DNA of 51,612 nucleotides from a virus, in IMG/VR virus record IMGVR_UViG_3300029914_000036, positions 1 through 51,612 of that record; one strand, written 5' to 3'. Shown here piece by piece: positions 18,091 to 34,877 of this stretch. The notes beneath the pieces are model-generated. The model was not told the origin of the DNA. It worked only from the letters and a program-made list of their open reading frames with translations, and did not search any database. Position numbers and translations under genes: made by a program. Position 1 is the first letter of the stretch; the number at the start of each line of letters is the position of its first letter.

Positions 18091-21033
18091 TTAGGTCCTT
18101 ACGACTTCGCAAGCACCACCACCACATGCGACAGAGCCAGAGAAATCGGTATTGTTGTCCTCTTCTTTTACTTCTCTTAAATCTATTGACTTGACTAAAG
18201 AACTTAAAGTATTAAATGTATCTTCCGTGCAATCCTCAAAAGGCATTTGAACATAAGAAGAATTGTCGTAAGGAAGTAGGGAGATGCCAGCGTAATGATT
18301 ACGATTATCCCACATATACTTACATACACCATCCCACTCTTCTTCCTTAACAGATACCGTACACGATACGTTGTGTTTATCAACTCCAGACACATGTCCT
18401 GCTGCCACCCAATACTTATTGTAAGCAATTGCTCGTTCCAGCAAATCCAGAGCAGACTCTTTCTCCCTTACAATAGCGTTACTTGGAGACATTTGAGGTA
18501 TAGTAACTACGGTAGTATTTACCTCATTTTTTGCATCTTCACAAAGATCAGGAATAACCATTTGTAAATATTTTGTTAGAGCGTCGTCCTTTACCATCCT
18601 GATCCTGCGTAGGTAATAGGGTGAGTGGCGTGCATGGATTCCACTAGAACTACCCACAACGCAAGAACTAGAACCCTCCGGCTTGATTGTGGTGGTCCTG
18701 GCGGCTGGACGTATACCAATAGCCTTGGCAATAGATTGATTGGTCTCCAACACCAGCTTGGCTCCTTCTTCTAGCCATTCATTTGTTACTATTCCATTGG
18801 CATCAGCAACTCCTGTTAATGAAACACCAATTAAGGCTTCATAATCTGTAATCTGCTTCCAAGCTTGACGTAGGTATGGGAAATCAGTATATGAAGCTTG
18901 CAATGTTCCAATAATAGAAGCTGCCTTAACCCTATTAAGAAAATCTTGTTTGGTTTTAATACCAGTTTGATTTACTGAGGTGAGATTGCAAAATTGACCC
19001 CCAAAGACTTGACCTACATCGGGTATATTCATTGAAGCATTTAATGATATTTCATGGCACTGTCCAATATGAATACCTATGCCAATCGATAGTGAATGAC
19101 TGCCATCTACAGTACAACAGTAAACTTTTTCATCCACACCATCATCAACTATAGAGACTATTTGATTATATTTATTTTTCAATGAATAGGTCGTGGTTTT
19201 ATTAGAAAAAGAAATAAGTCTCTCGAATTTAACCTGTTTGGCCAAACAAATAGAAGAACTTTGACTGATAGTTAAACGATAAGCGTCTTTAGAATCATAC
19301 GCTCCATATCCATCGTTAAAGTCTACTTTACATGCTTTTTTGGTTAACTTCAACTTACTTCTAACACCAATAGTCTTAAGAAGTGTTTGAAAATCAGAAA
19401 GCCACTGCTTGTTTATTGAAGTGATTTGATACATAAATCCATTACGAGTGTCACTTGAGGTTCCATCTGAATCCATGACTCCTGCGATAAAATCTAATTT
19501 AGACTGAAGATCCCAGACGAATACTTCTTTAGGTAGGGAGTGTTTGTATATAGTTGCCCAGTTTATAAGATCTTCTCGTCTTGGAGAAAGTCCCCTCATC
19601 CTCTTTCTGTTTTCACCAGAAGCAACAAAGTCTAAAGTGGAGACCTCATTATTTGTTTTGTCAGTATTGATGCAATCCAGCTCATTTGCTGATTTTAACA
19701 AGCGATCCTCACATGCATACTTGGTATCATAAAGGTACAAAAGTGGTATAATACCATTACTCGCAGATCCGTCTCCAACTAGGAAACCTTTTAAATAGGC
19801 GGCTCTGGTTTTAACATTTCCGTTATTTAAAATAACCGATGGCCATAACTTATTGCCAACAACTAAATCTTTAGCCTCTAAACGATCGCCGTTTTCCAAT
19901 ATAAAAGAGTGATATGGAGTTGTACGAACAATTGAACCATCTTGTAGTTCAATCTTCAACATCTTTTGGTTTTCTCCAGTTACGCGGAAGTTATCAACTG
20001 ACTGCCATTCGAAACCATTCCAGATATCTACTGTTTTACCTACCAAATCCTCAACCGGAAATGTTCCCTGTTTGGTAACAATAAGAGTACCAGCACCAAA
20101 ACATGGATTAAATCCAGTAACCAACGGATTACCAGACCACGAGAATCCAGGTTCACCAGAACCTGATTTACGACAAATATCAAATATATGGTAAAACTCA
20201 TCCTTGGTAACTTCACCTCTAGGAAGGACGGCGCTGTTATTTGCACGGGCGCGATATGGGTGTTTCTCCCACCAGTTACCTGATTTAGACTTAAGCATCT
20301 CTTCATCGTCACGACTGAATAAACAAATTAACGCGGCGCGTCTAATTCCCCCAGCAAGAACACAATCAGATCCAATACAAATAATATCGTGTACCTCTAT
20401 TGGTTTAAGTTTACGACCAACAGCCGCTTTGAGTCTTATTTCAATTTCCTTCAAGGCATGCTTGAGTGGCTCTGGACCAGGAGCCTTTGCACCCGTAGTG
20501 ACAAGAGGACTACCTTTTGCGCGAATCATACTAAAATCAAACTGAGGTTTTACTTTACGATAAAAGTAAGCATCCATCAAAGCATCAAGGGCCTGAGCCC
20601 ATCCCTCTATTGAGTCGTGAACTGTAAAATATCCCTCATCCCGAGGAAGTTGGATTGTTGGTAGTTTAACTACATGTTCCTTTTGAACACTATATCCCAC
20701 CCCAGTCCCAGAAAGCAGACAAAATAGAATTTCACCAAAAACTCTAGTATCATCTATGGCGGTAAAAGCACAATTAAACAGACGGAGGTTGTTCTTAAGT
20801 ACACCTTGTCCCCCAAACTGCATCCCTCTCATAGACGTTAAGCACTCTTTGTCCAAAACAAATTCGAAGGCATTCATTATCTTCTTTGATAGTTTTGGGA
20901 ACCTGTCCAAATGCATAACCATTGAACGATTAACAGTTTCCTCCCAAGTCTCTCTACGGGAAAGATGAGATAAATGCTTGGCGTATGTACGAAATGATAC
21001 TATCTGGGATAGAAGTGCAGATGAATTGTCCAT
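18091..21033 (-). CDS. nrdJ: Class II (adenosylcobalamin-type) ribonucleotide reductase with intein
   Basis: The 980-residue precursor contains about 632 residues of reductase and a 348-residue intein. The reductase part resembles monomeric class II enzymes such as Lactobacillus RTPR: LFNCAF (Cys88), SGTGVGYSV (108-116), and the radical-site motif NP-C-HEISLN rebuilt across the intein. A FCNLTSVN segment has the partner Cys (Cys682), YVQMPFEDC lies near the C-terminus, and ACGGGACEVV holds the redox-active Cys pair. It reduces ribonucleotides to deoxyribonucleotides using a B12 radical. The ATG follows AAGGAAAAA and lies 14 bases after the CCA end of tRNA-Trp. Confidence 0.93.
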   Translation of the reverse strand: MDNSSALLSQIVSFRTYAKHLSHLSRRETWEETVNRSMVMHLDRFPKLSKKIMNAFEFVLDKECLTSMRGMQFGGQGVLKNNLRLFNCAFTAIDDTRVFGEILFCLLSGTGVGYSVQKEHVVKLPTIQLPRDEGYFTVHDSIEGWAQALDALMDAYFYRKVKPQFDFSMIRAKGSPLVTTGAKAPGPEPLKHALKEIEIRLKAAVGRKLKPIEVHDIICIGSDCVLAGGIRRAALICLFSRDDEEMLKSKSGNWWEKHPYRARANNSAVLPRGEVTKDEFYHIFDICRKSGSGEPGFSWSGNPLVTGFNPCFGAGTLIVTKQGTFPVEDLVGKTVDIWNGFEWQSVDNFRVTGENQKMLKIELQDGSIVRTTPYHSFILENGDRLEAKDLVVGNKLWPSVILNNGNVKTRAAYLKGFLVGDGSASNGIIPLLYLYDTKYACEDRLLKSANELDCINTDKTNNEVSTLDFVASGENRKRMRGLSPRREDLINWATIYKHSLPKEVFVWDLQSKLDFIAGVMDSDGTSSDTRNGFMYQITSINKQWLSDFQTLLKTIGVRSKLKLTKKACKVDFNDGYGAYDSKDAYRLTISQSSSICLAKQVKFERLISFSNKTTTYSLKNKYNQIVSIVDDGVDEKVYCCTVDGSHSLSIGIGIHIGQCHEISLNASMNIPDVGQVFGGQFCNLTSVNQTGIKTKQDFLNRVKAASIIGTLQASYTDFPYLRQAWKQITDYEALIGVSLTGVADANGIVTNEWLEEGAKLVLETNQSIAKAIGIRPAARTTTIKPEGSSSCVVGSSSGIHARHSPYYLRRIRMVKDDALTKYLQMVIPDLCEDAKNEVNTTVVTIPQMSPSNAIVREKESALDLLERAIAYNKYWVAAGHVSGVDKHNVSCTVSVKEEEWDGVCKYMWDNRNHYAGISLLPYDNSSYVQMPFEDCTEDTFNTLSSLVKSIDLREVKEEDNNTDFSGSVACGGGACEVVRT
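19060..20103 (-). other. Intein at the radical cysteine of ribonucleotide reductase
   Basis: Residues 311-658 of the reductase precursor. It starts with Cys (CFGAGTLIVTKQGTFPVEDL), has a block B-like VRTTPYHSFIL, and two LAGLIDADG-type motifs, LKGFLVGDGS (414-423) and FIAGVMDSDG (515-524). The end reads IHIGQ followed by Cys659. Thus the last residue is Gln instead of Asn and the penultimate residue is Gly instead of His. The +1 Cys is also the predicted thiyl-radical Cys, so splicing is needed for activity. Confidence 0.9.
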
Positions 21034-30846: not shown

Positions 30847-31194
30847 ATGAATATCGAACTAAAATTAATAGGTTATCACTTAACGGATGGTTCCAAGAAG
30901 GAATTTGAATGTCCTGGGTGTGGACTTTGGTATCCAACTAAAGAAAAAACCCTTAACTGTATCAAAAAGTTCCATTCAATGTCTAATGATTGGGAATACA
31001 AGAAGATAGAGGCTAATAATGGAGATATACTCCATATGGCTCAAGGCGTTGCTTCCAAGCCCAAATCAGAAGAAATTACCGATGAGTTCGACATAGTTAA
31101 CAGTATGGCTAGTTCAGGAGAAGTTCCCCCAGAAGTAGTCAAAATACTCAAAAACCGTATACCTAAAAAGGCAACAAAAGGAAAGAACGAATAG
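30847..31194 (+). CDS. Small protein with zinc-finger-like motif
   Basis: A 115-residue protein with an ECPGCGLWYP motif and a downstream Cys and His (LNCIKKFHSM), which could bind one zinc. The rest is charged and helical. It heads the rightward operon with the sigma-like gene 6 bases downstream, so a transcription-related role is conceivable. Not recognised. Confidence 0.68.
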   Translation: MNIELKLIGYHLTDGSKKEFECPGCGLWYPTKEKTLNCIKKFHSMSNDWEYKKIEANNGDILHMAQGVASKPKSEEITDEFDIVNSMASSGEVPPEVVKILKNRIPKKATKGKNE

Positions 31195-31200
31195 ATATTA

Positions 31201-33468
31201 ATGGCTTCATCTCAAGACCAGCATTTTGCTAACTTTCAAAAGATACTATCCTCCAAGATAGTTGCCTATGGAGAGCACCAAGGCTCTGAAAAGGACTTTA
31301 TTAAGTCTCAAAAGAAGCAAGTTCTTAAGCTTTCAAAGCTGGAAGAGATGTTTCGTAAGGAACTATTACGAACTCCTCATGGTTTGCAGGTCTACATGGA
31401 ATTTATCAACTTCATTAGGGATGACCGAAAGAATATATTAGATGCCAGACCTTACTTTCGTATAAGACAAGACGTGTTCACCAAGAAGGTATCCCCAGCC
31501 TTACGAACCAGGGATCCAAAGAACATACAAAAGTGTCATTTTAACTTTACCTTTATTTCATTTGCCATGAAATATGTAGTGTTATCACCCAATGACCCAT
31601 TAACAGATATTTACGAAGAACTTAAAGAAGTAAGGAATAAGCTAATAGAAGTGAACACACCTTTGGCAATAGCCAGAAGCAGCCAATTCTATCGTAAAAC
31701 TAAAAGAAATCACTTAACCCGCATGGACCTAATCCAGGTGGCGTTGGAAGGTTTGACTGCTGGAATAGACAAGTTTTGCGGTATTTACGACAATACCAAA
31801 TACCGTCATATGCTTATAGGCAGAATTACGGGCAATCTAATTGAGGCTTATTGTATTGACGAAAACACAATATTAAACCCAATAGGCCAGCCTCCAAAGA
31901 AGATTTCAGAGTTTATTCCTGGTGATAAGATTTTAGGAATTGATGATTCTGGGGCTATTATAGAAACAGAAGTTGTAGCATTACACGATCATGGCGTCGT
32001 GGACGGCTATGAGGTTGAATTTGCCGATGGGTATAAGATAATATGCTCAAAAAATCACAAATTCCTTACAGAAGAAGGTCAAATCCCAATTCACGAAATA
32101 GTATCCAGAGGCTTGGGTGTGCTTTGTGAGCCCACCAATGAAAACTGGTGGTTGGACAACTCATTGCCAAATGGTTCTACCGTCCAAGAGAAAGATGTAT
32201 GCTCACAAAAAAGTATGTCCAATCTGCAAAACACTGGTATACGAGACCCGGCGCTCGAATGGGCTGAAACTAACCTTACATCAAACTCTAACCGAAGGAT
32301 GGAAAAGTCTGTGCGGTCAGACTTTTCGAACACGTCGATTGTTTTACAGTCACAGAAAAAACTGTCAGGTTTGTCAAAAAGCCATATTGGAGGGACTTGT
32401 CGCAAGGGCCAAGAATTGGCGGAACAAGAACATGGAACGTGTTCTAGAGCACATGCGGAATATTTCGATAGCATTTCAGGAGTCTTTACAAAAAAGACCA
32501 GACCTAAAATCGAAACACACAGAAAAGGTGAAACAAGCTTCCATGGAATGGAGGTCGAAGAATCCAGAGGAATTCATCCTCAACATGAAAAAAGCCTGGG
32601 CCGCTCAGAAACCATCCAAGATGGAAGCGTGGTTACGGTCAAGCGGAACTATAACCTGGGACGATGTTCAAATCAGATGCGGAAAGGAAAGAAAGCAGGT
32701 GGACTTCGTTTCTCCGGATCACAAAATATGGGTAGAAGTGGATGGGAGCTTTCACTTCAAAGAAGTATCGACGAAGCCGTTGAAGCAGAGATTGCCAAAG
32801 ATTCAGCAACGGGATGCCATGTTGAAGACGGAGGCCCTATTGAGGAAAGATGTGACTTTGATCCGATTAGCGGCGGATTGTTTCTATGCGACTGGCATAC
32901 TAAAAGAGCCTTGGAGGGTGTGGCTATCAAACATGCTCCTCTCACCTCGACCAGGGGTTTGGTGTTGCGGAAAGTTGTACGATTTAGCCCCATGGGCACA
33001 AGAAGGATGTACGATCTTGAGGTCGCCCACCCCAAACATAACTTCCTTTTGCCTAACGGAATAGTTACTAGCAATTCCGAAACAATGGTTCATTTTTACC
33101 CAACAGACAAGAGAAAACTGTATAATGCAAACAAAGTAATGAATAAATGTCGTACAGAGGATTTTCAAGAAATATCTGCCAGGGTAAATGATTTAGCTAA
33201 AGAGCATTTATACACCACTACCCCAGAAGAAGTAACACATTTAGTGGCAGCTAGTAATCTAATTAATGCCGACTTCTCACCTCCCGCCCATTCCGGTGAT
33301 AACCAAACCAAGACTATACAAGATACGATGCAGTATGCCGATGTACCGGAAAAACAACCAGATATAGGTTATGAAGCACATGAATTGAGCGGCAAGTTAG
33401 CACAAGCAATACGCAAATTAACAGTATTTGAGCAAAAACTACTAAGACTCAAGGGAATGGAATTTTAA
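31201..33468 (+). CDS. Sigma-factor-like protein interrupted by an intein
   Basis: The 755-residue precursor contains 347 residues of a sigma70-like protein and a 408-residue intein. Before the intein, residues 150-217 resemble sigma region 2 (VNTPLAIARS, RMDLIQVALEGLTAGIDKF, then KYRHMLIGRITGNLIEAY). After it, SETMVHFYP and NANKVMNKCRTEDFQEI continue, and a region-4-like LTVFEQKLLRLKGMEF forms the C-terminus. The protein stops right where the region 4.2 DNA-binding helices would begin, so it may act like late sigma factors that need a co-activator. The intein sits inside region 2. It heads the packaging operon with the upstream small zinc protein. Confidence 0.8.
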   Translation: MASSQDQHFANFQKILSSKIVAYGEHQGSEKDFIKSQKKQVLKLSKLEEMFRKELLRTPHGLQVYMEFINFIRDDRKNILDARPYFRIRQDVFTKKVSPALRTRDPKNIQKCHFNFTFISFAMKYVVLSPNDPLTDIYEELKEVRNKLIEVNTPLAIARSSQFYRKTKRNHLTRMDLIQVALEGLTAGIDKFCGIYDNTKYRHMLIGRITGNLIEAYCIDENTILNPIGQPPKKISEFIPGDKILGIDDSGAIIETEVVALHDHGVVDGYEVEFADGYKIICSKNHKFLTEEGQIPIHEIVSRGLGVLCEPTNENWWLDNSLPNGSTVQEKDVCSQKSMSNLQNTGIRDPALEWAETNLTSNSNRRMEKSVRSDFSNTSIVLQSQKKLSGLSKSHIGGTCRKGQELAEQEHGTCSRAHAEYFDSISGVFTKKTRPKIETHRKGETSFHGMEVEESRGIHPQHEKSLGRSETIQDGSVVTVKRNYNLGRCSNQMRKGKKAGGLRFSGSQNMGRSGWELSLQRSIDEAVEAEIAKDSATGCHVEDGGPIEERCDFDPISGGLFLCDWHTKRALEGVAIKHAPLTSTRGLVLRKVVRFSPMGTRRMYDLEVAHPKHNFLLPNGIVTSNSETMVHFYPTDKRKLYNANKVMNKCRTEDFQEISARVNDLAKEHLYTTTPEEVTHLVAASNLINADFSPPAHSGDNQTKTIQDTMQYADVPEKQPDIGYEAHELSGKLAQAIRKLTVFEQKLLRLKGMEF
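31852..33075 (+). other. Intein in sigma-like protein, host for an out-of-frame endonuclease gene
   Basis: Residues 218-625. It starts CIDENTILNPIGQPPKKI with a block A pattern, has block B (GYKIICSKNHKFLTEEGQ), and ends with block F/G (RRMYDLEVAHPKHNFLLP, then NGIVTSN) followed by Ser as +1 residue. The penultimate residue is Ser rather than His. Between about residues 310 and 595 this frame reads as low-information sequence without any endonuclease motif, because a nuclease is encoded there in another frame. Only about 135 residues resemble a splicing domain. Confidence 0.88.
32195..33064 (+). CDS. Nested homing endonuclease, zinc-finger plus Vsr/PD-(D/E)XK-like, out of frame in intein
   Basis: A 289-residue frame, offset by one base from the intein frame, from ATG 32195 (MYAHKKVCPICKTLV). 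The frame is open further upstream (from 32117), but this start precedes the first zinc motif. It shows a first CPIC motif, a CGQTF and a second NCQVCQKA motif (two candidate zinc fingers), a Lys-rich linker (KVKQASMEWRSKNPEEF), and a nuclease core: KQVDFVSPDHKIWVEVDG, then FHF and QQRDAMLKTEALLRKDV. This resembles Vsr/EDxHD-type homing endonucleases. The TAG stop lies 11 bases before the intein's end. It would cleave intein-less sigma alleles. Confidence 0.82.
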   Translation: MYAHKKVCPICKTLVYETRRSNGLKLTLHQTLTEGWKSLCGQTFRTRRLFYSHRKNCQVCQKAILEGLVARAKNWRNKNMERVLEHMRNISIAFQESLQKRPDLKSKHTEKVKQASMEWRSKNPEEFILNMKKAWAAQKPSKMEAWLRSSGTITWDDVQIRCGKERKQVDFVSPDHKIWVEVDGSFHFKEVSTKPLKQRLPKIQQRDAMLKTEALLRKDVTLIRLAADCFYATGILKEPWRVWLSNMLLSPRPGVWCCGKLYDLAPWAQEGCTILRSPTPNITSFCLTE

Positions 33469-33469
33469 T

Positions 33470-33865
33470 ATGGACAAACCTACTTTCGTTATAGATAATT
33501 TTACAGACGCAACGCCTGCTCCGGAATGGTTTAAATCACCTGAAGGTCCAGTTAATGGACAAACCAAAACTGTAGCTTTTACAGTGAATGGACAAATAGC
33601 GGTAGAACCTTTTCAGGCCACCACGACCCTTAAGACTGTTAAGAGGGGTGGTTTGAGGGTGTTAGACCAAACAATTAGCCTTATTAAGACCAAAGCCGTA
33701 TTTGACTACAAGGATTCAGATCTAGAGGTTTGCAGAGGAGGAAGTATTTATCTCAAGGGGAATGTAGGATTCCAAGCTTGGGCCAAACAGGTTTATGAAT
33801 ACGAGGGGATTAAATTCGTATTAGTTCCAAAGACTGAAATCGTAATGGTTAACAATAATGGCTAA
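33470..33865 (+). CDS. Possible GroES-like co-chaperonin
   Basis: This 131-residue, beta-rich protein has a C-terminal part (residues 58-128) that resembles a GroES barrel: RGGLRVLDQTISLIKT, then RGGSIYLKGNVGFQAWAKQV and the ending EYEGIKFVLVPKTEIVMV, like the GroES ending that has G-D-V...E-D-I-L-A-V/I. No mobile-loop motif stands out. Since a GroEL is encoded at 25078, a co-chaperonin is expected. This is an inference from pattern and context. The start overlaps the sigma-like stop by TAATATG. Confidence 0.55.
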   Translation: MDKPTFVIDNFTDATPAPEWFKSPEGPVNGQTKTVAFTVNGQIAVEPFQATTTLKTVKRGGLRVLDQTISLIKTKAVFDYKDSDLEVCRGGSIYLKGNVGFQAWAKQVYEYEGIKFVLVPKTEIVMVNNNG

Positions 33866-34877
33866 TTATTTAGTAGTTGGAGATTATCATGCGGTAGCTA
33901 CGGAGTTGGACGAGTGCGCTCGTCTGATGGAGCGAATTTACAAACTCCAAGAAACCGATAAGTGGGATGGTATTGTATTCTTGGGAGACCAATATCACTC
34001 ATTTGCTAATATAAACGCATATGTAATGGATTTTTGGACTAAATCATTTTCTGAACTAAAGACAAGATTTAAGGATGTGATAGCTCTGGTTGGTAATCAC
34101 GACCAACCTGGAGACAATACGGATGAAGTCAAGATCCACTCCATGATTCCTCATAAATCACAAATTACAGTAATAGATAAGCCAACTATTATAGATAATA
34201 TGCTGTTTATGCCTTATTATCACAAGGAGGAAACTTGGTTGAATCACTATAATGAGCAAAATCACTCTTCATTTCATACAGTTGTAGCACATCAAACATT
34301 CCAAGGGTGCATGTACGAAAACGGATTTTACGCCAAAGATGGTTTTGGTGTAGAAAACGTCCAGCACAATATAATCAGCGGTCACATTCATAAATTCCAA
34401 GATCTACGTAACAATCAACATCCATACAAAATGATTTATCCTGGAAGTCCCCGTTGGAGAAATGTCAGTGATACAAATGAAGGTAAATCTCTTTTTGATT
34501 TACATGTAAATCAGGATACTTTCCAACTAGCAGAAGCGTTAGATACAAATGAGGTTTGCTCTAAAATGCATCATATTGAGTTTGTCGAACCAGAAAGCAC
34601 CAACAAGTTTCTTCCTAAAATTAAGGATAACGATAGGATTGTAGTGGATATTAAAGGTTCAGAAGCTTATATTAAGTCTGTTTTACCAGAAATATCTACC
34701 TGGGCTACTAGAATCAGGGTGTTTCCACAAAATCAAAAGAAGGTAACCGTTTCCGAGCAAAAATCCATAGAGGAGAGCTTGAAGGATTTTCTTTCCAACA
34801 TCAAGGCCCCCAACGGAACACATCCAGACTGTTTATTAAGTAACGTAAAACGGAGGTTACATGCAGAGGAAGAATAG
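33858..34877 (+). CDS. Mre11/SbcD/gp47-like nuclease
   Basis: A 339-residue metallophosphoesterase with the nuclease pattern VGDYHAVA (7-14; Asp9, His11), VFLGDQYHSF, ALVGNHDQPGD, VAHQTF and ISGHIHKFQ. The C-terminal 120 residues (after LFDLHVN) form the capping region. This is the expected partner of the Rad50/gp46-like protein encoded at 22693 on the other strand. Together they would process DNA ends for recombination. The 8-base overlap with the upstream gene indicates translation coupling. Confidence 0.85.
   Translation: MANYLVVGDYHAVATELDECARLMERIYKLQETDKWDGIVFLGDQYHSFANINAYVMDFWTKSFSELKTRFKDVIALVGNHDQPGDNTDEVKIHSMIPHKSQITVIDKPTIIDNMLFMPYYHKEETWLNHYNEQNHSSFHTVVAHQTFQGCMYENGFYAKDGFGVENVQHNIISGHIHKFQDLRNNQHPYKMIYPGSPRWRNVSDTNEGKSLFDLHVNQDTFQLAEALDTNEVCSKMHHIEFVEPESTNKFLPKIKDNDRIVVDIKGSEAYIKSVLPEISTWATRIRVFPQNQKKVTVSEQKSIEESLKDFLSNIKAPNGTHPDCLLSNVKRRLHAEEE

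Follow-up and report, generated by a model that had tools for sequence, protein, structure and literature searches.

A putative homing endonuclease gene overprinted on the linker of an intein in a viral sigma-like gene

In fractured genes, reportedly described by Dassa et al. 2009, an open reading frame (ORF) for an EDxHD/Vsr-like endonuclease lies between the two halves of a split intein. The homing endonuclease I-Bth0305I is intron-encoded. The I-Bth0305I/Vsr type of EDxHD homing endonuclease is described as having an extended multi-domain DNA-binding front end (PMC3943268), and another study places EDxHD/Vsr-like relatives in phage introns (PMC12350094). The nearest published out-of-frame case that we found in the open-licence literature searched is that of the ShiLan domain and the Pacc40 insert, where HNH endonucleases are encoded out of frame in actinobacteriophage methylases; no intein splicing domain can be detected in these inserts, which are believed to remain part of the host protein, and the ShiLan nuclease, an HNH enzyme, lies in the third frame, where the authors found no ribosome-binding site (PMC11855218). 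A true intein with an out-of-frame endonuclease was not found in the literature searched. Here, we describe such a locus in a 51,612-nucleotide stretch of viral DNA (positions 1 to 51,612 of IMG/VR record IMGVR_UViG_3300029914_000036; hereafter the window), whose sigma-like gene contains an intein at 31852-33075. In our judgment it is highly likely that this is a mobile intein that carries its homing endonuclease as a separate gene, overprinted on the intein linker.

Intein and nuclease frames in the window

The sigma-like gene (31201-33468, plus strand) is one frame of 755 codons that runs unbroken through the intein, with the N-extein at 31201-31851, the C-extein at 33076-33465 and the stop codon at 33466-33468; its frame, length and intein motifs are as the first-pass annotation of this DNA had described them. 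Its matches to sigma-family profiles are below cut-off, and its homologue in Myxococcus phage Mx1, annotated as a putative sigma factor, is 43% identical and has no intein. The Mx1 protein aligns with the window protein without a gap at the junction of 31852-33075, and intein-free sigma homologues in viral contigs add 30 further loci (not de-duplicated), each with one continuous match across the insertion site. The insert is therefore 31852-33075, exactly the borders proposed earlier, and at the sequence level its excision would leave an intact host protein, as judged from the Mx1 alignment and the 30 loci.

The insert (plus strand) has 408 codons, from Cys1 to Asn408, and is followed by Ser+1. 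The splicing residues of inteins are a nucleophile at position 1, a block B His, a block F His, a C-terminal Asn and a Ser, Thr or Cys at +1, and they are present here as Cys1, His69, His396, Asn408 and Ser+1; the penultimate residue is Ser, instead of the usual His. Among the intein profiles, TIGR01443 matched above its cut-off, while TIGR01445 and the Pfam family Intein_splicing (PF14890) matched below their curated cut-offs, and sequence matches to inteins in the PDB reached E values down to 2.9e-8. In the structure model, for which 14 inteins were aligned, confidence is high over roughly ninety residues at the start and forty at the end, and residues 104-365 have a predicted local distance difference test (pLDDT) score below 50. 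The top match of the ordered part is the Npu DnaE intein (Foldseek E 1.9e-7). The N-terminal splicing part of the HINT domain (HINT-N, blocks A and B) spans 31852-32124, with pLDDT mostly above 90 and matches to DnaE inteins in the PDB, and the C-terminal part (blocks F and G), supported by profile, alignment and model, spans 32956-33075; the inner borders of both are approximate. The linker between them (32125-32955) has about 277 codons, contains no stop and is predicted to be disordered. By sequence and predicted fold, the insert is a HINT-type intein, which would be removed by protein splicing. A large intein with an in-frame homing endonuclease domain was considered for 31852-33075 and rejected because the nuclease lies in the +1 frame.

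We also considered that the insert might be an RNA-spliced group I or group II intron carrying an endonuclease gene, in line with the related EDxHD/Vsr-like nucleases that are intron-encoded in phages according to the study cited above (PMC12350094). However, intein splicing blocks bound the insert, and the host frame stays open through it. Over 31000-34000 no Rfam family reached its gathering score, the sole hit being an unrelated microRNA family (E 0.66), and absence from Rfam is no proof. Overall, an intron is extremely improbable.

The frame at +1 to the intein is open from 32102 up to a TAG at 33062 and contains the putative homing nuclease ORF (32126-33064, plus strand), with a possible start at GTG 32126 (alternatives are GTG 32117 and ATG 32138) and its stop at 33062-33064. 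A zinc-finger nuclease one base off the intein frame had been proposed by the first-pass annotation; its frame and motifs hold, but its start at ATG 32195 is unlikely, as zinc finger 1 already begins upstream of it, with its first Cys at 32165. The stop is placed 11 nucleotides before the intein end, and the nuclease frame therefore extends through the C-terminal splicing part. From sequence and alignments, the protein has two zinc fingers of the form C-x12-H-x3-C-x2-C (32165-32227 and 32312-32374) and, from structure matches and conservation, a Vsr/EDxHD-like catalytic domain (32612-33028), all on the plus strand. Among 16 aligned sequences, E163 (32624) and H206 (32753) are invariant and D189 (32702) and D226 (32813) are nearly so; these four residues may correspond to the EDxHD motif.

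The nuclease model, built from the 16 aligned sequences, has a pLDDT of 89.2. In a second-look structural alignment of this model, Vsr (1cw0) ranked first (Z 10.4 over 133 residues, 3.7 Å), 1vsr ranked second (Z 9.6) and the catalytic domain of I-Bth0305I ranked third (Z 8.4 over 92 residues). The nuclease is Vsr-like by predicted fold, despite the HNH label of the profile family phrog_559 that it matches, and it would presumably cleave DNA. Nuclease similarity of the offset frame, on which the first-pass annotation had staked its proposal, was thus found by profile, conservation and fold matches.

Over the linker, the intein frame has 0 stops, the nuclease frame 0 and the third forward frame 19, in agreement with the earlier description of two open frames and one closed. 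The same description had stated that no nuclease codon ending in T is followed by AA, AG or GA, as an open intein frame requires, and such codons number 0 of 88 over the open nuclease stretch compared with 60 of 231 at other sites; over 32195-32953 the counts are 0/76 and 45/176 (Fisher p = 1.6e-8). Synonymous permutation of the 253 nuclease codons in 32195-32953, with protein and codon use kept, gave a mean of 10.6 intein-frame stops (10.6-11.5 across both permutation runs on the window's own codons, against 0 observed), and zero stops were reached in 0 of 20,000 permutations. When codons for this stretch were drawn instead at the frequencies seen in 23 further genes of the window, 18.9 intein-frame stops were expected and zero was again reached in 0 of 20,000; the some 15 stops of the earlier rough count are of the same order. 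In the reverse permutation, where the intein-frame protein is fixed, the nuclease frame was still open in 2 of 20,000. The longest alternative forward open run within the 23 other window genes is 95 codons.

A dual-coding family across loci

The dual-coding family comprises at least 14 distinct loci: the window, L042, L075, L076, L077, L078, L121, L122, L123, L125, L126, L127, L129 and L132. Two near-copies, L124 and L128, were dropped from the 14-locus counts and bring the number to 16 where they are included. The nuclease-family counts rest on the matches listed, and because the scan counts are lower bounds, the nuclease family is probably larger. Scans with single window proteins matched only the window's own contig, and the relatives were brought in by alignment queries. 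They sit in viral contigs and in two bacterial metagenome-assembled genomes (MAGs), of Thiomargarita sp. and of a Thiotrichaceae bacterium; among 369 genomes drawn from the class of the Thiomargarita MAG, that MAG was the sole match. In all 14 loci and the 2 near-copies, the nuclease occupies the host frame +1 and the host frame has zero stops, while the third frame has 10 to 42 stops per locus over the open nuclease stretch.

The host gene is dnaE in 10 of the 14 loci, always at the YGFN/YSFN site (identified by Pfam for L075 and L121, and for the remaining loci by extein similarity to these two). The other host genes are the sigma gene (window and L123) and an unassigned ORF with at least 1,140 extein residues (L042 and L125). 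Since L125 and L127 lie on one contig, one phage carries two overprinted inteins. His69, His396 and Asn408 are invariant in 14/14 inteins. Position 1 is Thr in five of them (L076, L078, L122, L129 and L132), which is an unusual first intein nucleophile in place of Cys or Ser.

Across the 16 loci, 204 host-frame stops were expected (about 184 over the 14) and 0 were observed, and none of 2,000 shuffles per locus reached zero. A T before AA, AG or GA occurs at 0 of 1328 nuclease sites versus 896 of 3635 other sites, or at 0 of 1187 without the near-copies. As a control, in six relatives that are not so overlapped (the fractured L130, L131 and L136 and the free-standing L036, L037 and L038), T stands at 281 of the 742 sites of this kind, and the numbers of stops are close to the mean of the permutations. 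Relatives inside a host gene make up 17 distinct loci among the matches listed, of which 14 are dual-coding, 3 are fractured and 0 have the nuclease in the host frame. Stops in the intein frame of homologues, which the first-pass annotation had proposed to look for, are absent from the contiguous layout; those in L130, L131 and L136 go with a split host gene.

These counts bear on the possibility that chance or codon bias has left the second frame open and that one frame alone is real. Long alternative frames do exist, of 160-221 codons in loci with a G+C content (GC) of 0.34-0.41 (L093, L094, L096 and L112) and of up to 299 codons in the GC-rich L009. Nevertheless, zero stops were found in 0 of 20,000 permutations, the pattern holds in 14 distinct loci and is missing as a depletion from the six controls, and each frame has its own family and fold matches, so that we give chance next to no weight. 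An assembly or sequencing artefact, in which a compensating pair of indels moved an ordinary intein endonuclease out of the host frame, is equally remote. The data read are assembled contigs, as this explanation would need; however, the same layout is present in contigs assembled separately from different metagenomes and in two MAGs, with nucleases 31-47% identical to that of the window, which makes an assembly error very unlikely, and a pair of indels cannot produce zero host-frame stops in each locus. The observation of the first-pass annotation is therefore right, its interpretation is right in substance, and the evidence supports a conserved arrangement.

The mean identity over 78 pairs of 13 loci is 0.375 in the nuclease frame and 0.202 in the host frame; L132 was omitted from this test because its nuclease is truncated, and in L078, L121, L122 and L129 the test takes in part of HINT-N, which raises the host-frame identity. 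In the same pairs, the differences at nuclease codon positions 1, 2 and 3 are 0.50, 0.44 and 0.65. The host-frame third position is thus the least variable, a pattern opposite to the one that selection for the linker's protein sequence would leave. What appears to be selected in the linker is openness rather than sequence, and its residues in the host frame look like a side effect of coding for the nuclease. Compared with shuffles, the host-frame linker is more hydrophilic in 11 of 13 loci (z from -3.9 to +0.5).

Further loci were seen beside the family. At L132:4685-5335 the nuclease frame has shrunk to 145 residues and neither frame has closed; upstream, the same dnaE ORF contains what by eye resembles a second, ordinary intein. 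At least 31 weaker relatives (L043-L073) match mainly the catalytic core, and a mechanical screen flagged none of them. The HINT scan gave 42 loci. In the mechanical screen of 110 other loci, 17 overlapping pairs were flagged in 8 loci; those of L012, L093, L096 and L112 were inspected and set aside, and the remaining ones are in L009 and L115 (0.64-0.66 GC), in L094 and, as one pair, in L130. The alternative +1 open frames at L093:6775-7254, at similar places in L094 and L096, and at L112:1682-2344 lie on AT-rich contigs within ORFs that by eye resemble helicase and DNA polymerase, with no intein or nuclease motif seen, and are taken as chance or another overlap.

Probable expression and movement of the element

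In the 14 loci, the nuclease has at its head an in-frame start codon, which falls either in the last part of HINT-N or ahead of block B; upstream of this codon there is some complementarity to the 16S tail. The best duplex ranges from -6.2 to -12.9, is better than the mean of permuted host codons in 13 of 14 loci and is within the best 5% in 7 of 14. The nuclease stop lies inside the intein in 13 of the 14 loci, and in L075 the frame runs 49 nucleotides beyond the intein end. Internal initiation, giving a separately translated nuclease, is the best reading of these sequences and probably the right one.

Alternatively, ribosomes leaving the HINT-N frame by a programmed +1 frameshift could yield an N-extein/HINT-N/nuclease fusion and no separate protein. 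A shift site would also enforce the fixed +1 register of all 14 distinct loci, and the ribosome-site signals of the window and L127 are no better than chance. On the other hand, most loci have start codons with 16S-tail complementarity at the nuclease head, and L077, L122, L126, L129 and L132 have a stop in the nuclease frame 6-9 nucleotides upstream of the proposed start, which leaves almost no room for a shift and argues against it. From these start codons and upstream stops, we consider frameshifting unlikely, with a small chance of being correct.

With internal initiation as the preferred reading, the host frame would yield a sigma precursor whose HINT domain is interrupted by a long unstructured linker, and splicing would remove all 408 residues and restore the sigma-like protein. 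The +1 frame, starting at the end of HINT-N, would give a zinc-finger nuclease of the Vsr/EDxHD type, translated most likely by internal initiation. Alleles that have no intein would be cut by this nuclease and would then receive the complete element through repair. Selection keeps the linker frame free of stops. It is very likely, if somewhat less so than the reading of the window itself, that the loci form a distinct family of overprinted inteins, found at three sites in three phage host genes and, in two bacterial MAGs, in dnaE. In this family, the +1 frame of the linker would be translated on its own into the nuclease, the linker protein would be a by-product that is free of stops, and the elements would either have given rise to fractured genes with split inteins or have arisen from them.

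The sigma site is empty in Mx1 and the 30 loci noted above, which are no census because the sigma scan missed the intein-bearing loci L123 and L124. The two sigma hosts (window and L123) are 31% identical and their nucleases 44%, while L076 and L127, at the same site, have dnaE exteins that are 93% identical and nucleases that are 56% identical. The empty sites and these identity contrasts fit horizontal movement. Between L123 (4660-5997) and L124, the intein has 1 difference in 1218 bases and the exteins have 25 differences; we dropped this near-identity as proof of recent homing because the surrounding region is mosaic and contains further identical stretches. Around the window's sigma-like gene, one small ORF on each side separates it from a helicase gene and a metallophosphoesterase gene, a gene order common to the window and Mx1 except for one small ORF. 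Another IMG/VR contig (IMGVR_UViG_3300029985_000693, 125,960 bases) matches the window, with stretches of 12,265 and 10,945 bases identical.

In the nuclease tree, from which L132 was again omitted, support is 97/96 for the sigma pair, 97/94 for the pair in the unassigned ORF and 96/98 for all four together, and the dnaE elements fall into several groups. The dual-coding rows occupy one side of a branch with 62/88 support, and the tree does not resolve whether the fractured or the dual-coding form came first. By Pfam, L130, L131 and L136 are fractured dnaE genes with a related nuclease ORF between split-intein halves, in the +2 register relative to the N-half. At L130:2152-2330, the N-half dnaE ORF starts with another intein C-terminus (PF14890, 1.6e-12, residues 12-49), and the L130 dnaE may therefore be fractured twice.

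Several points weigh against the proposal of an overprinted, mobile intein. Splicing, expression and cutting are all steps that we infer. The ribosome-site signal is weak in the window, where the candidate Shine-Dalgarno region GAGGCTTGGGTGTGC for GTG 32126 (32108-32122, plus strand) is equalled by 194 of 1000 permutations, and is absent from L127 (343 of 1000 as good); the combined p of 6.5e-7 over the 14 loci counts related loci as independent. The reverse permutation left the nuclease frame of the GC-rich L042 open in 580 of 20,000, and the truncated nuclease of L132 is without the conserved Asp189. For the window nuclease, plain Foldseek matches to Vsr were weak (E 0.04-0.06), searches of Pfam and NCBIfam gave nothing above cut-off, and the strongest profile match, phrog_559 (1.5e-8), carries the label HNH; the next was a family labelled homing endonuclease (5.6e-4). 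Searches of 50,697 phage records with the nucleases of the window, L076, L077 and L129 gave no match within the limits set, so that no cultured example emerged. A permissive search of the phage records gave nuclease relatives at E 4e-3 and weaker, and the L077 nuclease had no match among plasmids.

The family phrog_559, labelled HNH endonuclease in PHROGs, is matched by the nucleases of the window, L121, L123 and L130, and the fold of the window nuclease is Vsr-like. Some members of the family may thus be mislabelled as HNH.

Comparison with described systems

An intein must keep the host frame open, and its nuclease must act on other genomes. In the overprinted intein, these two functions are split into two proteins while the gene is unbroken, and the nuclease therefore need not fold inside the precursor. 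The family, tested in 14 distinct loci, is a clear example from nature of overprinting in which one protein segment is disordered and the other folded. A pipeline that calls genes in one frame can be expected to miss the other frame at such inteins.

Like the fractured genes, the window locus has this kind of nuclease lying between these two splicing halves, and the comparison drawn by the first-pass annotation was apt, as L130, L131 and L136 are dnaE genes with a related nuclease between the halves. The window locus is not itself a fractured gene with a split intein: its host gene and intein form one uninterrupted frame of 755 codons, which makes splicing in cis possible. Contiguous and fractured forms occur at the same place in dnaE, and the overprinted intein is a neighbour form for the origin of split inteins that have a nuclease gene between their halves.

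The ShiLan/Pacc40 type resembles the window locus in being a phage insert without a host-frame stop that has a homing endonuclease in another frame on the same strand (PMC11855218). Unlike it, the window family is a HINT intein around a Vsr-like nuclease, in the +1 frame and in unrelated host genes. A ShiLan-type HNH insert is ruled out for the window by the HINT domain and the Vsr-like fold, despite the HNH label of phrog_559. The catalytic fold (Z 8.4 and 10.4) and the multi-domain DNA-binding front end (PMC3943268) are shared with I-Bth0305I and Vsr; in contrast to the intron-encoded I-Bth0305I, the window nuclease is overprinted on an intein linker.

The window also contains a conventional in-frame LAGLIDADG intein (PF14528, PF14890), in a ribonucleotide reductase gene at 18091-21033 on the minus strand. 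Both the sigma intein and such ordinary LAGLIDADG inteins have a HINT domain that is split by an endonuclease insertion, but in the ordinary form the endonuclease is in the host frame and is part of the precursor, whereas in the sigma intein it lies in the other frame.

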